Shown piece after piece: positions 51,611 through 59,927 of a stretch of 64,000 nt of DNA. The DNA is from Guyanagaster necrorhizus (lineage: Eukaryota; Basidiomycota; Agaricomycetes; Agaricales; Physalacriaceae): NCBI RefSeq assembly GCF_019112545.1, contig NW_025064882.1:1502928-1566927 (forward strand). The letters are read 5' to 3'. The notes beneath the pieces are model-generated. The model worked only from the letters and a program-made list of their open reading frames with translations, did no database searches and was not told where the DNA came from. The translations under genes and the position numbers were made by a program. Position 1 is the stretch's first letter. Each line of letters opens with the position of its first letter.

Positions 51611-53129
51611 CTAGCCATCGTAAACAACAATGTAAGAAGGCTTGATTGCTTCACCTTTGTAGACGACCAGTTCATCGTGGTTGAGACTTCCTCCTCGCTC
51701 CCCAAGAACCTGAAATGAGGATCTCAGTCACAGTCACTCACAACCACCGAGAAAACATACAGAGTCAAAACCCACAGGTGCCTGCGTAAGGGTGGGGTCA
51801 TCTTGACGCAGCTTGCGTCCCTTTCCCACGACAACATTGTTGAGCAACACGGCACGGAAATCAGAGTGCCCAGTATTTTCAATGTAATCGTTCGCCCTAC
51901 AGAGAAAAGCCGACTTATCAATGTGATAGTAAATGAAACTTGATCCATACGTACTTCGATGATGTGGCCGACGTATAAATTCCCTTTCCGAACCTACATA
52001 GAAATATCAAAGAGATTCAACGCACATCACTTTCTGTGTGAAGTTTACGCACCTCCCCCAACCTGTGTTCTTTCCCCACTGATTGATGTTGAAAGATTCA
52101 CGGATGATGTTGCACAAACTACATGAAGGCGCGTTGCATAACGTGCTACCTTGTTTCGAGTTGGGGTCTCCGAGACTACAGTCCTTCCTGGTGCCATGCC
52201 AACGGCGTTTCTCGTTACCGGCTGTCAAACTGGGATCGTTTTTGAAATTGCCCACTTTTTCGACGTCGTCACTGCGGTGGGATAGAAACTCGTCAGTACG
52301 TGAAACCGAACAATATGTTGAAGGAATATCTTCACCGATATTGCTGGTACTTCTGCGATATGTCTGCTTTCAAAACGATCTTGTATATCTTTCTGACTAT
52401 AGGACAACGGGTGTTATGTCGCCAACCCAGCTGGAATTGATTTTGGACTATTGTAGGTGATCAGCAGCAAGTTGCAAAATGTATGCCGTTTGGCTCACCA
52501 TTCTTGAACATCAAATGGTCGTGAGGGACATCTAATATAGTTGGAGCATTTCGGCCTACTGCATCTTCACATGCTTGGCCACAGAACGGCGAGTCGCTCA
52601 GCTTCGGGGCCTTGCGACACCGAAGACAATCGATCTTGGGCCTGAAAATTATGATTAGAGGAGCGCCTGATCTTCGATTGAAATTCAACATACCTCGAAT
52701 GCGACTGATTGCTAGCATTACTCGTCGACAATGGCGCGGTTGAATTCGACACCCCGCTCAGACTCGCTGCTGCCATGGCAGAATCGGCGCAACTTCTTCC
52801 ACAATACTGGTGCTTCCTGGCTCCTTCGACGAATTTTCGGCGCTTATGACAAAACTGATAATGAGATGATGAGAACATGGTCACCAAATTCAGGAAGGAA
52901 TGCAGCTCTTACCTCGCACAAGTCGCGTACGCCGCAGGTCTTGGAACAATAGTCATAGTTAGCATGCTTGGGTTTCTTATGACACCCCTATAAACATTGT
53001 TAGCACTTCCTAGAGTAGAAGACGAGATCGACATACCTCACACAGCCCTGATGGTGGCGTATGCTGTCCCAAGGGCAGGAAAAGACTGTAAGAGGGGTTG
53101 TAAGGGAGTACTGCTGCTAGCTGAGACAT
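51611..53129 (-). CDS. PARP-like ADP-ribosyltransferase A with three N-terminal Cys zinc ribbons, triad intact
   Basis: Predicted ADP-ribosyltransferase using NAD+. About 380 residues from roughly nine exons. The N-terminus holds three Cys modules of the form C-x2-C-x(13-18)-C-x3-C: CEGCHKKPKHANYDYCSKTC, CEFCHKRRKFVEG...YCGRSC and CLRCRKAPKLSDSPFCGQAC. Next comes a conserved linker (ILDVPHDHLMFKN, QFQLGWRHNTRCPIVRKIYK) and the PARP catalytic core. The NAD-binding histidine is in KRRWHGTRKDCSLG. A Cys pair region (CNAPSCSLCNIIRESFNI) follows, then the tyrosine in GRFGKGIYTSATSSKANDY. The last triad residue is the glutamate in NHDELVVYKGEAIKPSYIVV. All three H-Y-E residues are present, so catalysis is plausible. 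Divergent from ART B across 237 nt. The target is unknown. Confidence 0.86.
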
Positions 53130-53366
53130 TGCGAGGTTGGTGAGCTTCTATGGGAAGATCACCACATATATGCCATCGATATCATGATACCTGTTGGAAG
53201 AGTCGTGGGATACATCTGTCGTTGAGAGAAACGCGGTTGAAACGTGAGTTTCATGAAACGGAACACGCGGTTCCGTTGCGCTTTGGGAGTCCTGGTTAAA
53301 TCCATCCTGCCAGTATATAGTGATAGCCAGGTTCTACCTGCATCTTGTCATAATCTCCCTTCGGCA
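53130..53366. promoter_or_regulatory. Divergent promoter between ART A and ART B
   Basis: A 237-nt interval between two divergent ART genes suggests shared regulation. An in-frame upstream ATG for ART B at 53253 would shorten it to 123 nt. Confidence 0.5.
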
Positions 53367-54591
53367 ATGTATCCCTCGCGAAACCGAAACACTCGCTACC
53401 TCGGACCTTCATTCTCTCTTGCCATGACTCCCCAAACGCCACCTAGGCCACTCTGCAAGGTTCTCAAGATCCGTTATTACTTGATAGGGTCACTTACGTG
53501 CATTCAGAGATGCCAGCAAAGACCTGTCTTCATGGAGAATGGCCATTTGCATGAATACTGCGGTCGTACGTGTGCTGAAGCACAAGAGGGTCGCAGACTG
53601 AACGCATGTCTGTTGGTCGGATGCCAACAAACCGGCCGGGCTGCACATGCTGACTTCTGTTCAAATGAACATGCTATGTAAGTGAGCTAGAGATGTTGTA
53701 GCACAATATTAAGGCGTTGTCACAGGGAGGGTGTTCGGAAGCGCCAGATTGCGTCTTGCGAAGCCTGTCGTACCTACCCCAAGGTGACCATTGATGGGTT
53801 CTGTAATGCTTGCAAGCAACAGATGACATCCCCCACGATTACCATGGCATCTGCTTCATCCCGCTTCAAGGAATTGAGTCTCAGTTCTGGCGAAGCAAGA
53901 GATGGTCAGTATATTGTCCATATCGTTATACAAACGTTGATTTGACCTGTCGTTCAGTCAATAAACATTTCATCAGATATTGGAACTTATCAGGCGCCCA
54001 ATCACCGACTTTACGCAAGATTTACAAAGTCAGATCCACCGTTGAGGAAAACGACCTGTATAAGAATTTCCGGTGAGATAACGTTATCTGTAGGATACGA
54101 ATATACATTGACCCTTAGCCCAGAAAACGCGTCGACAAGCCAAAAGAAGCGCGTACATTTCATAGCGCACAATGCATCTGTGATTTGGGAGAGAAATTGC
54201 CTGAGACTTGTCAATACAAATCGTGTGGTATCTGTAGCATCATCAAGTCATCTTTCAACGCCTTCGAATTCGGCGACCCTGTCAATAGCGGGAGGTGGGA
54301 TTTGGAATAACACATTTCTACAACGACTAAAGCCTTCGAGCAGATTCGGGGAAGGAATATATTCCTACAAGTTTGCAGTACACGCAGATCGTTTTGCGAC
54401 TTCCTGCACGTCGTCCCGATACCGGGTAACGATTTTATGTGACGTAGTCGTGGATTCTAGTACGGAGGTGAGAGGAAGAGACAAGTAATCGTAAATACAC
54501 TGACGGTGCACAGGTTCCCGAGGATGAGTCCTTATTCGTTCCTAACTCCGATGCTATCATTCCCCGATATGTTCTCATGTACGACAAGTAG
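53367..54591 (+). CDS. PARP-like ADP-ribosyltransferase B with zinc ribbons, third triad residue lost
   Basis: Seven exons join in phase to about 330 residues. The N-terminus has two or three zinc modules (LCKRCQQRPVFMENG...YCGRTC, CLLVGCQQTGR...FCSNEH, CEACRTYPKVTIDGFCNAC), the same type as in ART A. The catalytic half shows the His segment FHSAQCICDLGEK, where the usual H-G-T is H-S-A. A Cys cluster (CQYKSCGICSIIKSSF) and the tyrosine segment GRFGEGIYSYKFAVHADRFA follow. At the place of the E-L-V-V-Y motif the text is ESLFVPNSDAIIPRYVLMYD; aligned on the shared ending, a serine replaces the catalytic glutamate. It is therefore a likely inactive or altered ART, perhaps an NAD or ADP-ribose binding module. 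Converges with ART C. Confidence 0.8.
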
Positions 54592-54753
54592 CACCATGGA
54601 ATACTATGGGGAACTTGTACGTAGACGGACTTGGCGCCACAATTGAAAACCATTGTTCATAACATTAACGATCGGTTAAATACTGAGCAGCAGCGAGTTG
54701 GTAGACCCACCCATCAGCACAAGATAGTAACACAAAGGACACACCCTCGATCG

Positions 54754-55808
54754 TCATGCGTCATATAGCGGGGTCCTAAATATCTTCGATATGAAGTTCG
54801 CTGCCTTGCTTTTCTTGAGAGATCCGGTATAAGCATAGACAACCAGATACGCAGGTCTAATCGCTTCGTTTGCATACACTACGGTTTCATCGTAATTTAG
54901 ATCCTCGCCGGGTACTCCAATTAACTAGAGATGATTAGGAGCATATATGAGAAGAGAAGCTGGCCGACGCACGGAATCATAGCTTGCTGGGGACAGCATT
55001 CGGTGACGATTATGATGTACGCGGCGTGGTTTACCGACGACTACATGGTTGACTAAAATCATGCGAAATGGGGAACCCTCGGAAACATCGCGGAAATAAC
55101 TATCGGCCTCTGTGCACGTTTGTGACCAGAAAAACAAAACAAGGGTCATGAACGTACTGGAGGAACATGATGTCGTGTATATGCCTTTGCCAAACCTCTG
55201 AAACGAATGACTGGTCCCTGAAGCGAGCGTGTGAAGAGGGAATTGCGGTGTACCGACAAAAGACGAACCTGACTTGTCAACGTTAAAAGATTCGCGTATG
55301 ATACAACACAGGTAGCATTCAGGTATTGGGCACAATTTGACATTGCTCTTAGTTTCTCCGAGACGACAGCTGCGAGATGTGCCGTGGAAGAGAAGCTCTT
55401 CGACGTTGGCAAGGCCACGTTTCTTCGTCACTTTGAGCCTGTAAAATGATCAGAATATCATCCAATGGAGAAGAGTGACCTAACCTACTTATACGAAGAG
55501 TACTTTTCTAGACTCTGCTCGGGTGAAAGTATTCGAAAAATGGCAGAGACTAAGGGTTTCGGCTTGTCGAGATGCTTCCAAGACTTCAGGAATTGCTGCT
55601 GTACTGAGAACCTGGTCAGATACAACGTAAATTGCCGGAAAAAGGTCTCACTTGGAAGAAAGTCCAAATCTGCGGGTGTTAATGGTAAAATTGGGCTTGA
55701 GTCCTTTCGTTTTGAGTACATCGGGCTATCGAGGCAGTGCCAAGAATCTTTCACAGATAAAGAGTTCACGGGTAGCATAGAGGATGAATAGGAAGCCGTA
55801 CGGTGCAT
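54754..55808 (-). CDS. PARP-like ADP-ribosyltransferase C without zinc ribbons, triad intact
   Basis: About 270 residues. An N-terminal exon (start taken at 55808) leads through VQQQFLKSWKHLDKPKPLVS, the linker seen in ART A (QFQLGWRH...), into the catalytic core. The histidine is in ELLFHGTSRSCRLGETKSN, the Cys region in CPIPECYLCCIIRESFNVD, the tyrosine in RFGKGIYTTSCSSKADSY, and the glutamate in LNYDETVVYANEAIRPAYLV. The H-Y-E triad is intact. The zinc modules seen in A and B are absent, and I found no extra exon upstream that restores them. A basic tail (SLKKSKAANFISKIF) follows the core. Its start codon is separated from the NADAR start by about 480 nt, transcribed away from it. Confidence 0.82.
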
Positions 55809-56289
55809 GAGTGATGCTTGGATCGTTGTCGGTGGCCAGCGAGGCCACTATTTTACCCTCTGCGATGCGGCCAGGGTGTGCATGTTCACCGAACGCCTTG
55901 GAAAAGCTTTGTCACCATATCCGCCACCGCTCAACTGCAGCAAGCTCCCCTCGTGATCAAATGTTCGCTACGTGAACCTGTTGTAAGGATCTATATGAAA
56001 CGGAGAATTTCTTCATGAACAAAAGAAAGGACAAAGCCAGGCAAAGTCTCCCACGCCTGTTGCTTCCCCCTTTGGGCTTGTGCGCCGGGCCGCCGGCTGC
56101 ATAGCTTGTCCAAAACCAGTTATATTTCGTGATTTTGCTGAATTCGTTACATCCAACAGCATGTTTTCGGGCTTAAAAGGCGACGATATGGCGTTGTCCT
56201 CGTGTTTATAGCGTGCTGTTCGACCCTCACCAAACTTTCAGCTCACAAGCCTTTTTCGTTGCAGAATTTCTCTACGCTTATTGCTCATC
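55809..56289. promoter_or_regulatory. Divergent region between ART C and the NADAR gene
   Basis: 481 nt between two divergent starts; the likely shared promoter of a predicted ADP-ribose writer and a predicted eraser. No separate gene is supported. Confidence 0.5.
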
Positions 56290-57163
56290 ATGCCTTATAG
56301 TTCTCAGCGTCATACTGTTATCTATGCGATCACGGATGGACCGCCAGTGGTCCACAGAAGTCCGCCGATGCTTCAGATAACTACTACGCAACCCCCCCCA
56401 CGAAACTCTCAGGCTTACATTCCGACTAGCCAGAGACCTGTATCTTACACTCCAGGATGCAATACACAGGGAAAGACCAATCTCAGTCCGAAAAATGCTC
56501 GGCACAGTGTTCCTGCCAATTCCTTTAGACAGAGTCGTTTCGGAATGACTTCTCCTATTGCCAATCGTATACTTTTCTACGACAAGGACAAGCCTTTTTA
56601 TTTTTTCACCAATTTTTCGGCCCACCCTGTCATTTACAACGGAGAAAGGTACCCAACAAGTGAACATCTTTTCCAATCTTTCAAGGTACGGGAAGTCATT
56701 CTTTCAAGTGCTGCCACAACTCACAGTTCGGTAGTTTGAACATCGTCCCAGCCTCGCAAAACACATCAGGACATGCTCTGAAAGACCGAGCGTGGCGTTT
56801 TCTGAGGCTCGGCGATTCCAACCGGAGGTTCGCACGGACTGGAAGGCAGTGAACATCAGCAAGGTGCGGTCTTCTCTGGCTGTGACAATCCAGCTCATGG
56901 GATCATCAGATGGAAGTTGCTCTTTACCTCAAGTTCACACAGCATAATGATCTGAAGCGCGAAATCCTTGCGACAGGAGATGCAGAGCTTGTCGAGGCAT
57001 GTCTTCCTCGTTTTCTATCATTGTTAACACATGCTAATGGTCCGGTTCACTGAAGGACTCTCCCAAGGATGCCTTTTGGGGTGTGGGGCTTGATGGGCGT
57101 GGTCGAAACGAGCTTGGGAAGGCCCTCATGAGAATTCGAGAGCGTATTCGACAGGACGAATGA
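56290..57163 (+). CDS. NADAR-family protein (predicted N-glycosidase / ADP-ribose-related hydrolase)
   Basis: NADAR (DUF1768, YbiA-like) proteins act on N-glycosidic bonds; members are known in riboflavin-intermediate clean-up and some remove ADP-ribose from guanine bases. Four exons (56290-56685, 56735-56863, 56910-56996, 57056-57163) encode 239 residues, with an N-terminal ~95-residue Ser/Pro-rich extension. The family core is intact: FYDKDKPFYFFTNFSAHPVI, RYPTSEHLFQSFKFEHRPSL, FSEARRFQPEVRTDWKAVNI, MEVALYLKFTQHNDLKREIL, GDAELVEDSPKDAFWGVGLD and GRGRNELGKALMRIRERI. The third intron begins with GC rather than GT (57 kb), the minor GC-AG class; using a nearby GT would create a stop. Position between ART genes suggests an ADP-ribose-linked role. 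Confidence 0.92.
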
Positions 57164-57312
57164 TTTTACAATGGCTCAACAGGATCCGTTTCCGATCGTC
57201 CATCGTGTAAATTACACTGTTTCATGATATGCTCCTCACTGGAAAAACGTGGCTGAAGCTATAAGTACGACGGAATTTTGTCCACGGCCTGTATCCATTT
57301 CTTTCTGTTACT

Positions 57313-58318
57313 ATGGCCTCTGTTCAGCCCACTCCAAACCCTCAACAGCTCTGTTCGGTGAATCTCACTTTACTTCCACGTTGAATCAGTTTTCCGATAT
57401 GATTGTAGTACTGCCACCGTAAACCGAAGTTCAACAACTTTGAATATTGCGGAAAGACTTGTGCCAAAGAAGCAAAGCAGGCCGCCAATTCCAATTTATG
57501 CAACGTACTTGTTCTTCCCTCGATACTCCATATTATCTACTGACTATGGGATATCAGTACTGTCATCAAAAGCCGAAGTTCGCCAATCACGAGTTTTGCG
57601 GAAAGAAATGTGCAACTTCCGCCGCTGTCGCCTCCACGCAGACGACTCCCAAGGCTTGCAATACAACCGGGTCAGGTACTGGGTCTTCGACGAAGGGAAA
57701 TCCAACTCCGCCTATTAAGACAGCACCTATTAGCCTGCCCGTGACATTGCAGAGCGGTCAAGTTATCGATGTGGCAGATCTTGCGCGTAAGTATCATCAC
57801 TTCTTATCATAATCTCGCTCGACAGCGCGGTTTTAGGTACTATAATCCAGCAGATCCCCCAGCTTCAAGCGTTAGTTTCCGGAGGGAATGGCCAGCCCGT
57901 CAACGTTAACCAGATTGCATCTCAACTCGCAAGTATGCTGGCCCCTGGACCACAGACAGGTCCTACCGCCCCGGGCCAGACGAACGGTACTTCGCCGTCG
58001 TCGTCTTTTGTTACAGCTATGTCTCAACTACCACCCAGTCCCATCGTCTTCCCACATGCTGTCGACTATACTTTCCCAGGTCGTGGCCAAGATGAAGACC
58101 CAGAACTCTCATTGAATAGTCCTACCGTGACCGTCGTGTACGTATTTTGACCACAGGATAACTCCACAGCTATAATCTTAATTCCATTCTACAGCGGCAC
58201 GCCCATGTTCTCCCAAGAGTCGCTTTGCATCATGTGCGGGATGGAGCCTCAAACTTATTATTACTACTTTTGTGGTGATGAATGCAGGGATAGCGCTTTG
58301 CATAAATACGGCGAATGA
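57313..58318 (+). CDS. Zinc-ribbon repeat protein lacking an ART domain
   Basis: Five exons give about 260 residues, starting MASVQPTPNPQQLCS. Two Cys modules follow directly: CSYCHRKPKFNNFEYCGKTC and CNYCHQKPKFANHEFCGKKC, both strikingly like the first modules of ART A (CHKKPKHANYDYCSKTC). A Thr/Pro-rich linker, a hydrophilic helix (LARTIIQQIPQLQALVSGG) and a Ser/Pro stretch (GPTAPGQTNGTSPSSS) lead to a last module, CIMCGMEPQTYYYYFCGDEC, at the C-terminus. No catalytic domain is seen. It may be an adaptor that shares partners or nucleic-acid targets with the ARTs. It follows the NADAR gene on the same strand after about 150 nt. Confidence 0.82.
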
Positions 58319-58971: not shown

Positions 58972-59927
58972 CTACACATCTGAGGAAAGGGATTTCTCAA
59001 CGACCTCTGTCCGTGCTTGCTTTTCACCCGTCCCTTTCAACGGCTTGGGCCACTTCGCCGGAGGGCCATCCCAGATTCCAAACTCTGTTTTCATCTCCTC
59101 AACATTTTGATCCCAGCGCTCCTCCCAGAAAACAGTGATGAGACTCCTCGCGCTACTGCCACACTTCAGGGCCCAAGGGGCGTACTCTGAGAATACCTTG
59201 TGCCGTTTCGCGCTATTCAAGCGCCAAGGGTAGAGAGCCGCAGAAAAACCGGCCATGGGAAGGCCAAGATTTGCTAATTCGAAATACTTGATAGCAAGCT
59301 CAGATTCCACATTGACAGGCATATTGCAGATGCAGTGATAGAAGTCATGACATTCGCGATATCGCTGCATCACATATGCCAATTCAGGATCGTCAATGTA
59401 GTGAACCTGATACATTTTAGTATCACAAACAGGAGCCTACGACAAACCAACGTACTGGAGCCCTTGTATCAGGTGTCACCCGACAACGTTCCAACCAACT
59501 AGTATAAGCACGACCAAAGGTTCCTTCTGGAAGCTGCGCCAGATTGTTCATATCCAAAGTCGTTGTATTGATGCGTGGTCGCTGTTTGAGGATCCTTCTC
59601 CCCTCTGAACTTTCAAGCATGATGTCACGTAGACGACGAAGAGATGGGCCGGCAGACGTTTCTCCGACTACCGCGACCAAGTCTAGTGACAAGGTAACTG
59701 AAAATATAGTCCAAATATCATCCTCAATGCTCACCACCACGACGTGGATCAGCCAGCGTCATGAGCCCAGCACCGACAAGCAAGAAGGTATTTTCGAACC
59801 AAGTGAGGGGAATATGGCTTGGATATGCAGGAGCAGTGGCCAGCAACCTAGAGCTCCCTGGACAAAAAGAAGGGTAAGGTGTCTTTTTGGAGACGGCGCG
59901 TGAGGCAAGCCTGCACAGCGACGACAT
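58972..59927 (-). CDS. COQ4: Ubiquinone biosynthesis protein Coq4 (mitochondrial)
   Basis: Coq4 is a matrix-side inner-membrane protein of the coenzyme Q synthome, recently linked to ring decarboxylation/hydroxylation steps. Three exons give about 285 residues. The N-terminus is a basic mitochondrial presequence (MSSLCRLASRAVSKKTPYPS) that fixes the start at 59927. The family text follows: FLLVGAGLMTLADPRRDLVA, VVGETSAGPSLRRLRDIMLE, a LKQRPRINTTTLDMNNLAQL segment, FGRAYTSWLE, the metal motif HDFYHCICNMPVNVESE (H-D-x2-H-x11-E), and SLITVFWEERWDQNVEEMKT at the C-terminus. All motif residues are intact. Divergent from the next gene across 373 nt. Confidence 0.94.

Follow-up and report, generated by a model that had tools for sequence, protein, structure and literature searches.

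Within a 64,000-nucleotide stretch of Guyanagaster necrorhizus DNA (contig NW_025064882.1, positions 1,502,928 to 1,566,927), hereafter the window, gene modelling places five intact, spliced genes side by side between positions 51611 and 58318, the two outer boundaries being the stop codons of the outermost genes. G. necrorhizus is a relative of Armillaria. The models confirm the consecutive order given in a preliminary description of this DNA, and their splice sites are GT-AG throughout, with the exception of a single GC-AG intron. The features are as follows:

51611..53129, minus strand: ART A, 9 exons, 358 amino acids
53130..53366: gap of 237 bp separating the divergent starts of ART A and ART B
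53367..54591, plus strand: ART B, 7 exons, 297 amino acids
54754..55721, minus strand: ART C, 5 exons, 256 amino acids, start codon uncertain
55722..56289: gap of 568 bp separating the divergent starts of ART C and NADAR
56290..57163, plus strand: NADAR of the YbiA type, 4 exons, third intron GC-AG, 239 amino acids
57313..58318, plus strand: zinc-module protein, 5 exons, 264 amino acids

The intergenic gaps measure, in order, 237, 162, 568 and 149 bp and are too short to hold a further gene of comparable size between the five. Each of the two gaps that separate divergent starts is possibly a shared promoter; a search for a motif common to the gaps stayed at chance level, since 43 of 300 shuffles contained a shared 10-mer as good as the best one found.

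The N-terminal part of ART A carries three zinc modules of the pattern C-x2-C...C-x3-C, and these are followed by a PARP-type catalytic domain with a complete triad (H220-Y274-E339) and, shortly downstream of the catalytic His, a four-cysteine motif (C226/C240/C245/C248). The Pfam PARP profile matches ART A above its cut-off (E=5.6e-11), the catalytic-domain HMM that we built for the family scores it at 283 bits, against 8.2 for the best of 1000 shuffled sequences, and none of the 120 homologues listed departs from H, Y and E at the triad positions. The Pfam value, the homologue listing, the triad conservation and the genome query described below were obtained with a 341-residue model of ART A, of which the 358-residue model is the corrected form. 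Judged by its sequence, ART A is predicted to transfer ADP-ribose in an NAD+-dependent manner. The catalytic domains of tankyrase and PARP4 are flanked by ankyrin/SAM regions and vault regions, respectively, whereas ART A has N-terminal zinc modules; moreover, the four-cysteine motif of ART A sits between the catalytic His and Tyr, unlike the zinc site of tankyrase, which is located after the Tyr. The ART A type is present across Agaricomycetes and, as we read the tree, has been inherited largely along species lines. Coprinopsis cinerea, a fungus that can be grown and edited, has an ART A-type protein of its own (P0061).

The preliminary description counted three PARP-like ARTs. As a statement of family membership this stands, all three being matched by the family catalytic HMM, but the likely active enzymes are fewer: the trio consists of one complete ART (A), one without zinc modules (C) and one that is eroded (B). 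ART B has kept its zinc modules, two of them matched by pattern. In its catalytic domain HSA replaces HGT, Y237 is kept, and alignment to the catalytic HMM extends only over positions 15-137 and 162-179 of 180 (65 bits); the Pfam PARP value of 0.0029 falls below the cut-off. Some 24 catalytic-domain residues are missing, among them the catalytic Glu column, which leaves the H-Y-E triad incomplete and makes ART B probably a dead enzyme. We rejected the reading that takes ART B for a normal third ART, since its intron 6 (46 bp) is too short to conceal the missing part. ART C carries the triad H96-Y148-E213 in its catalytic domain, scores 171 bits with the catalytic HMM and matches Pfam PARP above the cut-off (2.1e-12); no zinc module was matched in it by pattern, and in-frame Met codons lie upstream of its modelled start. 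Profile match and H-Y-E triad together place ART A and ART C among the PARP / ARTD proteins. Both ART B and ART C sit on very long branches, and their placement in the tree is unsure, with bootstrap support that has not settled. Decay, too, fits branches of this length.

The zinc-module protein is built of two zinc modules, a long linker and a third zinc module, and it ends at about the point where an ART domain would start. Its first two modules are repeats at the DNA level (57407-57464 and 57556-57613; 74%). No Pfam profile matched it above a cut-off. Against an HMM of the ART N-terminal part it scores 66 bits, and comparison of the profile of its relatives with that of ART N-termini (hhalign 99.8%, E=1.1e-27) upholds the earlier proposal that the ARTs and this protein have an N-terminal module in common; on the same two scores we rejected the view that it is an unrelated adaptor. 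By these matches the zinc-module protein is an ART-family protein without its enzyme. Homology is what the comparisons establish, and from it we infer that the zinc modules would serve in targeting. The predicted structure of a free zinc protein (P0133) has a mean pLDDT of 66.2 and a pTM of 0.27, and structure matches to an ART A homologue cover residues 142-359 only, with the zinc modules outside. In all four species names that could be checked, drawn from 11 named zinc-protein rows, the zinc protein lies on the contig of a listed ART A-type protein, NADAR or both: Mucidula (75,528), Galerina (463,447), D. ectypa and A. mellea.

The NADAR model agrees letter for letter with the annotated 239-residue G. 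necrorhizus protein (P0142), matches Pfam NADAR PF08719 at 5.1e-37 (128.1 bits, against a curated cut-off of 35.1) and is 41% identical to E. coli YbiA. It shares its domain with E. coli YbiA and with the NADAR of 8bau (structures 2b3w and 8bau), the latter presumably the Phytophthora NADAR, although the record names a NADAR domain protein only; catalytic and ADP-ribose-contacting residues are conserved. E125, K132, R158, W168, E204, D209 and W212 are all present, and E125, K132, W168, E204, D209 and W212 are kept in 37 of the 37 linked NADARs described below. Aligned to YbiA and 8bau, the protein has Glu at the subfamily-defining position (E204) together with the conserved E125 and K132, and so belongs to the YbiA type as delimited in PMC11543638 (Glu rather than Asp or His at the catalytic position; conserved Glu and Lys); the ADP-ribose-contacting residues given there align with its conserved positions. 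Hydrolysis of guanine-linked ADP-ribose by this NADAR is a prediction.

ART A, ART B, ART C and the zinc-module protein form one zinc-module PARP family that was not found elsewhere in the 53.3-Mb genome. Five single-protein queries, including the homologue from Coprinopsis, had matches at this locus only, in a search that reads the genome exon by exon and scores the best candidates. The Pfam PARP profile matched one exon, on contig C4, and missed the ARTs of the window, probably owing to their interruption by introns; further ARTs that belong to other types and are likewise split may therefore lie elsewhere in the genome. The PARG profile PF05028 had no match either in this genome or in the control genomes, so that a PARG gene may still be present here. 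Three NADAR loci were found, one of them inside the island.

The pairing of ART and NADAR extends beyond one genome. Relatives were searched with ART A, the zinc protein and NADAR as queries, the NADAR search being seeded with the type found in the window, so that other types were hardly sampled. Among the matches listed, 43 genome labels have both an ART A-type protein and a NADAR, and the two share a contig in 37 and lie on different contigs in six. By chance about 0.9 of the 43 would share a contig, and about 0.11 would do so on contigs shorter than 600 kb, where 20 of the 37 were found; these expectations assume 60-Mb genomes, and part of the excess may reflect general conservation of gene order. 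The shortest shared contigs are 65-75 kb. In Marasmius oreades (E1B28_010991/010994) and Cerrena zonata (QCA50_014316/014319) the two locus tags differ by three, and in Amanita inopinata by 18; a shared contig does not amount to adjacency there. Every linked NADAR is closer to that of the window than to the two other NADARs of the G. necrorhizus genome. Two-domain NADAR relatives lie on a contig other than that of the ART in five of seven testable cases, so linkage is not something that NADAR genes show in general. The pairing is accordingly no accident of one genome, and chance adjacency was rejected on this linkage together with the single-locus occurrence, among the best-scored candidates, in G. 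necrorhizus. A search of the open-licence literature, with subscription papers outside its scope, returned no paper describing this fungal locus among the matches listed.

Pairs of this kind are known from bacteria, and the likeness to prokaryotic writer/eraser logic that had been suggested for the locus proves apt. Described examples of ART-NADAR toxin-antitoxin pairs are DarT1-NADAR (PMC11543638) and, from myxobacteria, YarT-YbiA (PMC11125620), where the antitoxin to the ART is a NADAR of the YbiA type encoded beside it. Linkage of an ART gene to a NADAR gene, as in such pairs, is found in the window and in the 37 genome labels; ART A and ART C, however, lie on the strand opposite NADAR as separate intron-bearing genes, unlike a co-directional operon. 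YarT-YbiA resembles the mushroom locus in setting an H-Y-[E/D/Q] ART beside a YbiA-type NADAR without other domains. YarT is described as a small toxic bacterial ART encoded in an operon in three species (PMC11125620), whereas the mushroom ART is a eukaryotic PARP with zinc modules, encoded with its partner by separate intron-bearing genes on both strands, with duplicated derivatives and a wide distribution in Agaricomycetes. DarTG1 likewise links an ART gene to a NADAR gene, and its NADAR reverses guanine ADP-ribosylation; DarT is described as a BC4486-like ART and its partner as a BC4488-type NADAR with Asp (PMC11543638), descriptions that set the pair apart from the mushroom ARTs, which match Pfam PARP, and from their YbiA-type partner with Glu204. 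The Phytophthora NADAR is described as unlinked to DarT, and E. coli ybiA as part of a LexA-controlled operon (PMC11543638, PMC11125620). According to PMC11125620, the NADAR subtypes examined there, E. coli YbiA among them, act on guanosine-ADP-ribose in vitro but are inactive on thymidine-ADP-ribose; in cells, neither the toxicity of DarT1 nor that of YarT was relieved by E. coli YbiA, so that cleavage in vitro is no predictor of cellular rescue.

We propose, at about even probability, that the locus is a mushroom writer-eraser island built around a conserved core of two genes: PARP-family ARTs would write an ADP-ribose mark and the YbiA-type NADAR would erase it. The mark would likely be placed on guanine or another N-linked acceptor. 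According to this model, the zinc modules would bring ART A to its target, either nucleic acid or a complex of protein and nucleic acid, where it would move ADP-ribose from NAD+ onto a base amino group, most likely that of guanine because characterised NADARs cleave that linkage; NADAR would then restore the target. In the ancestry of Guyanagaster an original ART seems to have undergone duplication and splitting. ART C presumably retained the enzyme and lost the targeting part, whereas ART B and the zinc-module protein kept the targeting part but no functional enzyme, which may allow them to compete with or regulate ART A. As their genes lie head to head, the putative writer ART C and eraser NADAR could share a promoter.

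Other readings bear on both halves of this model. It is conceivable, though we doubt it somewhat, that the ARTs, like many PARPs, act on proteins, with NADAR removing a protein mark or processing free ADP-ribose derivatives; the preference of tested NADARs for guanosine-ADP-ribose over thymidine-ADP-ribose argues against this (PMC11125620), and protein de-modification by a NADAR is not described in the parts of the literature considered here. Slightly less probable, yet the chief competitor of the proposed model, is a housekeeping N-glycosidase that deals with reactive riboflavin-pathway intermediates or damaged nucleosides, its linkage to the ART being inherited gene order between genes of separate function. 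The YbiA type of the protein and its identity to E. coli YbiA would fit such a role, as would the housekeeping genes Coq4, Sec23 and TFIIF beta in the surroundings of the island; a riboflavin-intermediate role is described for bacterial and plant NADARs (PMC11543638, PMC11125620), and YbiA-like NADARs are positioned close to the plant and fungal NADARs of flavin biosynthesis (PMC11543638). Inherited gene order is harder to reconcile with a linked NADAR type that stays beside the ART on even the shortest shared contigs, when its two-domain relatives mostly lie elsewhere.

We regard as improbable a genome-defence or toxin-antitoxin-like conflict locus, in which ART products would damage infected cells or invading nucleic acids while the host would be shielded by NADAR. 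The bacterial toxin-antitoxin pairs are its precedent, and it would be in keeping with the fast diversification of ART copies, seen in the very long branches of ART B and ART C, and with an ART catalytic domain whose conservation falls short of that of NADAR (56% versus 72% median identity over the 37 linked pairs). However, descent of ART A largely along species lines fits a core cellular function at least equally well. A wider version of the writer-eraser model, unlikely but a little less so than a conflict locus, would have the whole class practise reversible nucleic-acid ADP-ribosylation, with a zinc-guided PARP marking guanines of DNA or RNA, the linked NADAR erasing the marks and the enzyme-less zinc proteins acting as regulators.

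PMC11125620 states that what NADARs do physiologically in the various eukaryotes is still unclear. Next to one insertion site in a Zymoseptoria mutant, a DUF1768/NADAR gene and a RING gene are recorded (PMC5568738). The conserved, genome-linked ART described here offers a concrete candidate partner, and candidate source of substrate, for NADARs in fungi. If the pair does write and erase a guanine mark, reversible nucleic-acid ADP-ribosylation by a linked ART and NADAR would not be confined to bacteria, and were the class-wide version true, it would constitute a eukaryotic counterpart of DarT1-NADAR and supply the missing partner for eukaryotic NADARs. With relatives of ART A and of the NADAR on one contig in dozens of other mushrooms, fungi would likely possess a reversible mark similar to one employed by bacteria in defence against viruses.

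The five genes of the island in Guyanagaster necrorhizus (Physalacriaceae, Agaricales, by taxonomy look-up) are consecutive, and the order and strands proposed in the preliminary description are upheld by gene models in which all five spliced reading frames are intact:

51611-53129, minus strand, ART A
53367-54591, plus strand, ART B
54754-55721, minus strand, ART C
56290-57163, plus strand, NADAR protein
57313-58318, plus strand, zinc protein

ART A and ART B are divergent, 237 bp apart, as are ART C and the NADAR gene, 568 bp apart; ART B and ART C converge with 162 bp between them, and 149 bp separates the NADAR gene from the zinc protein gene. A Coq4 exon (PF05019, E=2.4e-50) at 58975-59436 flanks the island. 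The final ART A model, with a splice site set by comparison with its relative P0001, has 358 aa; the query for the Pfam, homologue and genome searches and for residue conservation was a 341-aa model, 17 residues shorter. The NADAR model is identical to the annotated protein P0142 across 239/239 residues. Its third intron (56997-57055) is GC-AG rather than GT-AG, and the protein product matches the annotated one.

The preliminary description had allowed for chance adjacency. The pairing of an ART A-type gene with a NADAR gene recurs in relatives. Linkage was counted among the best 120 of 343 ART A homologues (E<=0.001) and the best 120 of 613 NADAR homologues, leaving out rows without name or contig data (27 and 32, respectively). 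The two lists have 43 genome labels in common (42 species, Mycena sanguinolenta being present as two assemblies), and in 37 of these (36 species) an ART A-type gene and a NADAR gene share a contig. Twenty of the 37 shared contigs are shorter than 600 kb; with genomes of 60 Mb assumed, chance would give 0.91 shared contigs for the full set of 37 and 0.11 for these 20. Locus tags place the two genes 3 apart in both Marasmius oreades (Agaricales) and Cerrena zonata (Polyporales), and 18 apart in Amanita inopinata. The zinc protein has 16 matches; four of 11 species names are testable, and for all four it lies on the contig of a listed ART A-type and/or NADAR protein. General conservation of gene order in the region is a possible explanation of the linkage, because housekeeping genes, Coq4 among them, lie near the island; the linkage figures cover the island's own genes only.

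The two proteins are on different contigs under six labels: Ephemerocybe angulata, Favolaschia claudopus, Lentinula raphanica, Lyophyllum shimeji, Mycena capillaripes and M. epipterygia. Gene prefixes suggest that in Ephemerocybe and Lentinula the ART and NADAR come from different assemblies, and the NADAR listed for each of the two Mycena species is a relative with two domains. Such proteins, with two NADAR domains, make up 13 of the best 120 of 613 NADAR relatives (P0137-P0141, P0143, P0147-P0150, P0168, P0174 and P0237, from Mycena, Crucibulum and Cyathus). Five of the seven that are testable are on a contig other than that of the ART; one from Crucibulum and one of two from Cyathus are on the ART's contig, the latter being the NADAR that stands for Cyathus in the linkage count.

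The window NADAR has 41% identity with E. coli YbiA and 31% with the NADAR in structure 8bau. Its residues E125, K132, R158, W168, E204, D209 and W212 align with those that contact or cleave ADP-ribose, as assigned in PMC11543638, and all are kept in 37/37 linked NADARs except R158 (36/37). Two further NADAR loci are present in the genome, on contigs C9 and C11. The linked NADARs of other species have a median identity of 72% to the window protein, 39% to C9 and 28% to C11 (a partial sequence), and none is nearer to C9 or C11. In the C9 paralogue (L002; G000:C9 912668-912856 and upstream) both catalytic glutamates are replaced, by M and Y, making it a likely pseudoenzyme. It still has an open reading frame, and its N-terminus is long and rich in proline.

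When the genome was queried with each of the three ARTs, the zinc protein and a Coprinopsis homologue, matches among the best candidates, which were the ones scored, were confined to this locus. A PARP profile found one exon outside the island, on contig C4; it did not pick up the ARTs of the window, probably owing to the introns that cut them. Three PARP-like ARTs had been proposed, and all three match a catalytic-domain profile built from ART A homologues (283 bits for ART A, 171 for ART C and 65 for ART B; 1000 shuffled sequences, <=8.2). ART B keeps its zinc modules and lacks profile positions 138-161, including the column of the triad Glu, and is therefore probably inactive.

The preliminary description proposed a shared targeting module. 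A common N-terminal module is supported, the zinc protein and the ART N-termini being homologous. An N-terminal profile scores ART A at 69, the zinc protein at 66 and ART B at 40 bits (shuffled sequences, <=9.5), and zinc-protein relatives, compared profile to profile with the ART family, match it across the zinc modules with 99.8% probability (E=1.1e-27). On these matches the zinc protein is an ART-family member without the enzyme. Pattern matching found no zinc module (C-x2-C...C-x3-C) in ART C, which by sequence is the converse. Modules 1 and 2 of the zinc protein (57407-57464 and 57556-57613) are 74% identical in DNA, each split by an intron after its first Cys, and read as an internal duplication. 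By eye, the free zinc proteins of Galerina, Hebeloma and Pleurotus show a further module, C-x4-C...C-x3-H, which neither the zinc protein nor ART A of the window has; the pattern occurs in 96/120 ART homologues (best 120 of 343). Between its catalytic His and Tyr, ART A has four cysteines encoded in exon 6 (52053-52271), C226, C240, C245 and C248, each kept in 119 or 120 of the same 120 homologues. These may form a zinc site adjoining the NAD pocket, unlike that of tankyrase.

The ART A type broadly tracks the species tree (bootstrap not settled), across Agaricales, Polyporales, Hymenochaetales and Boletales. In the same unsettled tree the Armillaria-Mucidula branch is long, and ART B and ART C sit on extremely long ones. 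Between Guyanagaster and its 37 linked partners, median identity is 56% for the ART catalytic domain and 72% for the NADAR domain.

PMC11125620 reports that the NADAR subtypes tested, including E. coli YbiA, cleave guanosine-ADP-ribose in vitro, and that in myxobacteria the ART YarT has a neighbouring YbiA as its antitoxin. According to the same paper, YbiA of E. coli rescues neither DarT1 nor YarT toxicity, so that activity in vitro does not by itself establish the cellular role. PMC11543638 reports that a eukaryotic NADAR, from Phytophthora, removes ADP-ribose from guanine, and it places YbiA-like NADARs near the flavin-biosynthetic NADARs of plants and fungi; PMC9503650 discusses the wider writer/eraser logic of conflicts. 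Outside the island, the Guyanagaster genome also encodes one ADP-ribosylglycohydrolase and has macrodomains at two places, so the NADAR is not the sole candidate ADP-ribose hydrolase. On the basis of these NADAR and YbiA findings, we predict that the mushroom ART would attach ADP-ribose through an N-link, with guanine as the most likely acceptor, and that the linked NADAR would erase the mark. In this predicted working the locus resembles the bacterial ART-NADAR pairs; those pairs are operons and the mushroom genes are not organised as one, and partly for that reason we liken the locus to them without classing it as a member.
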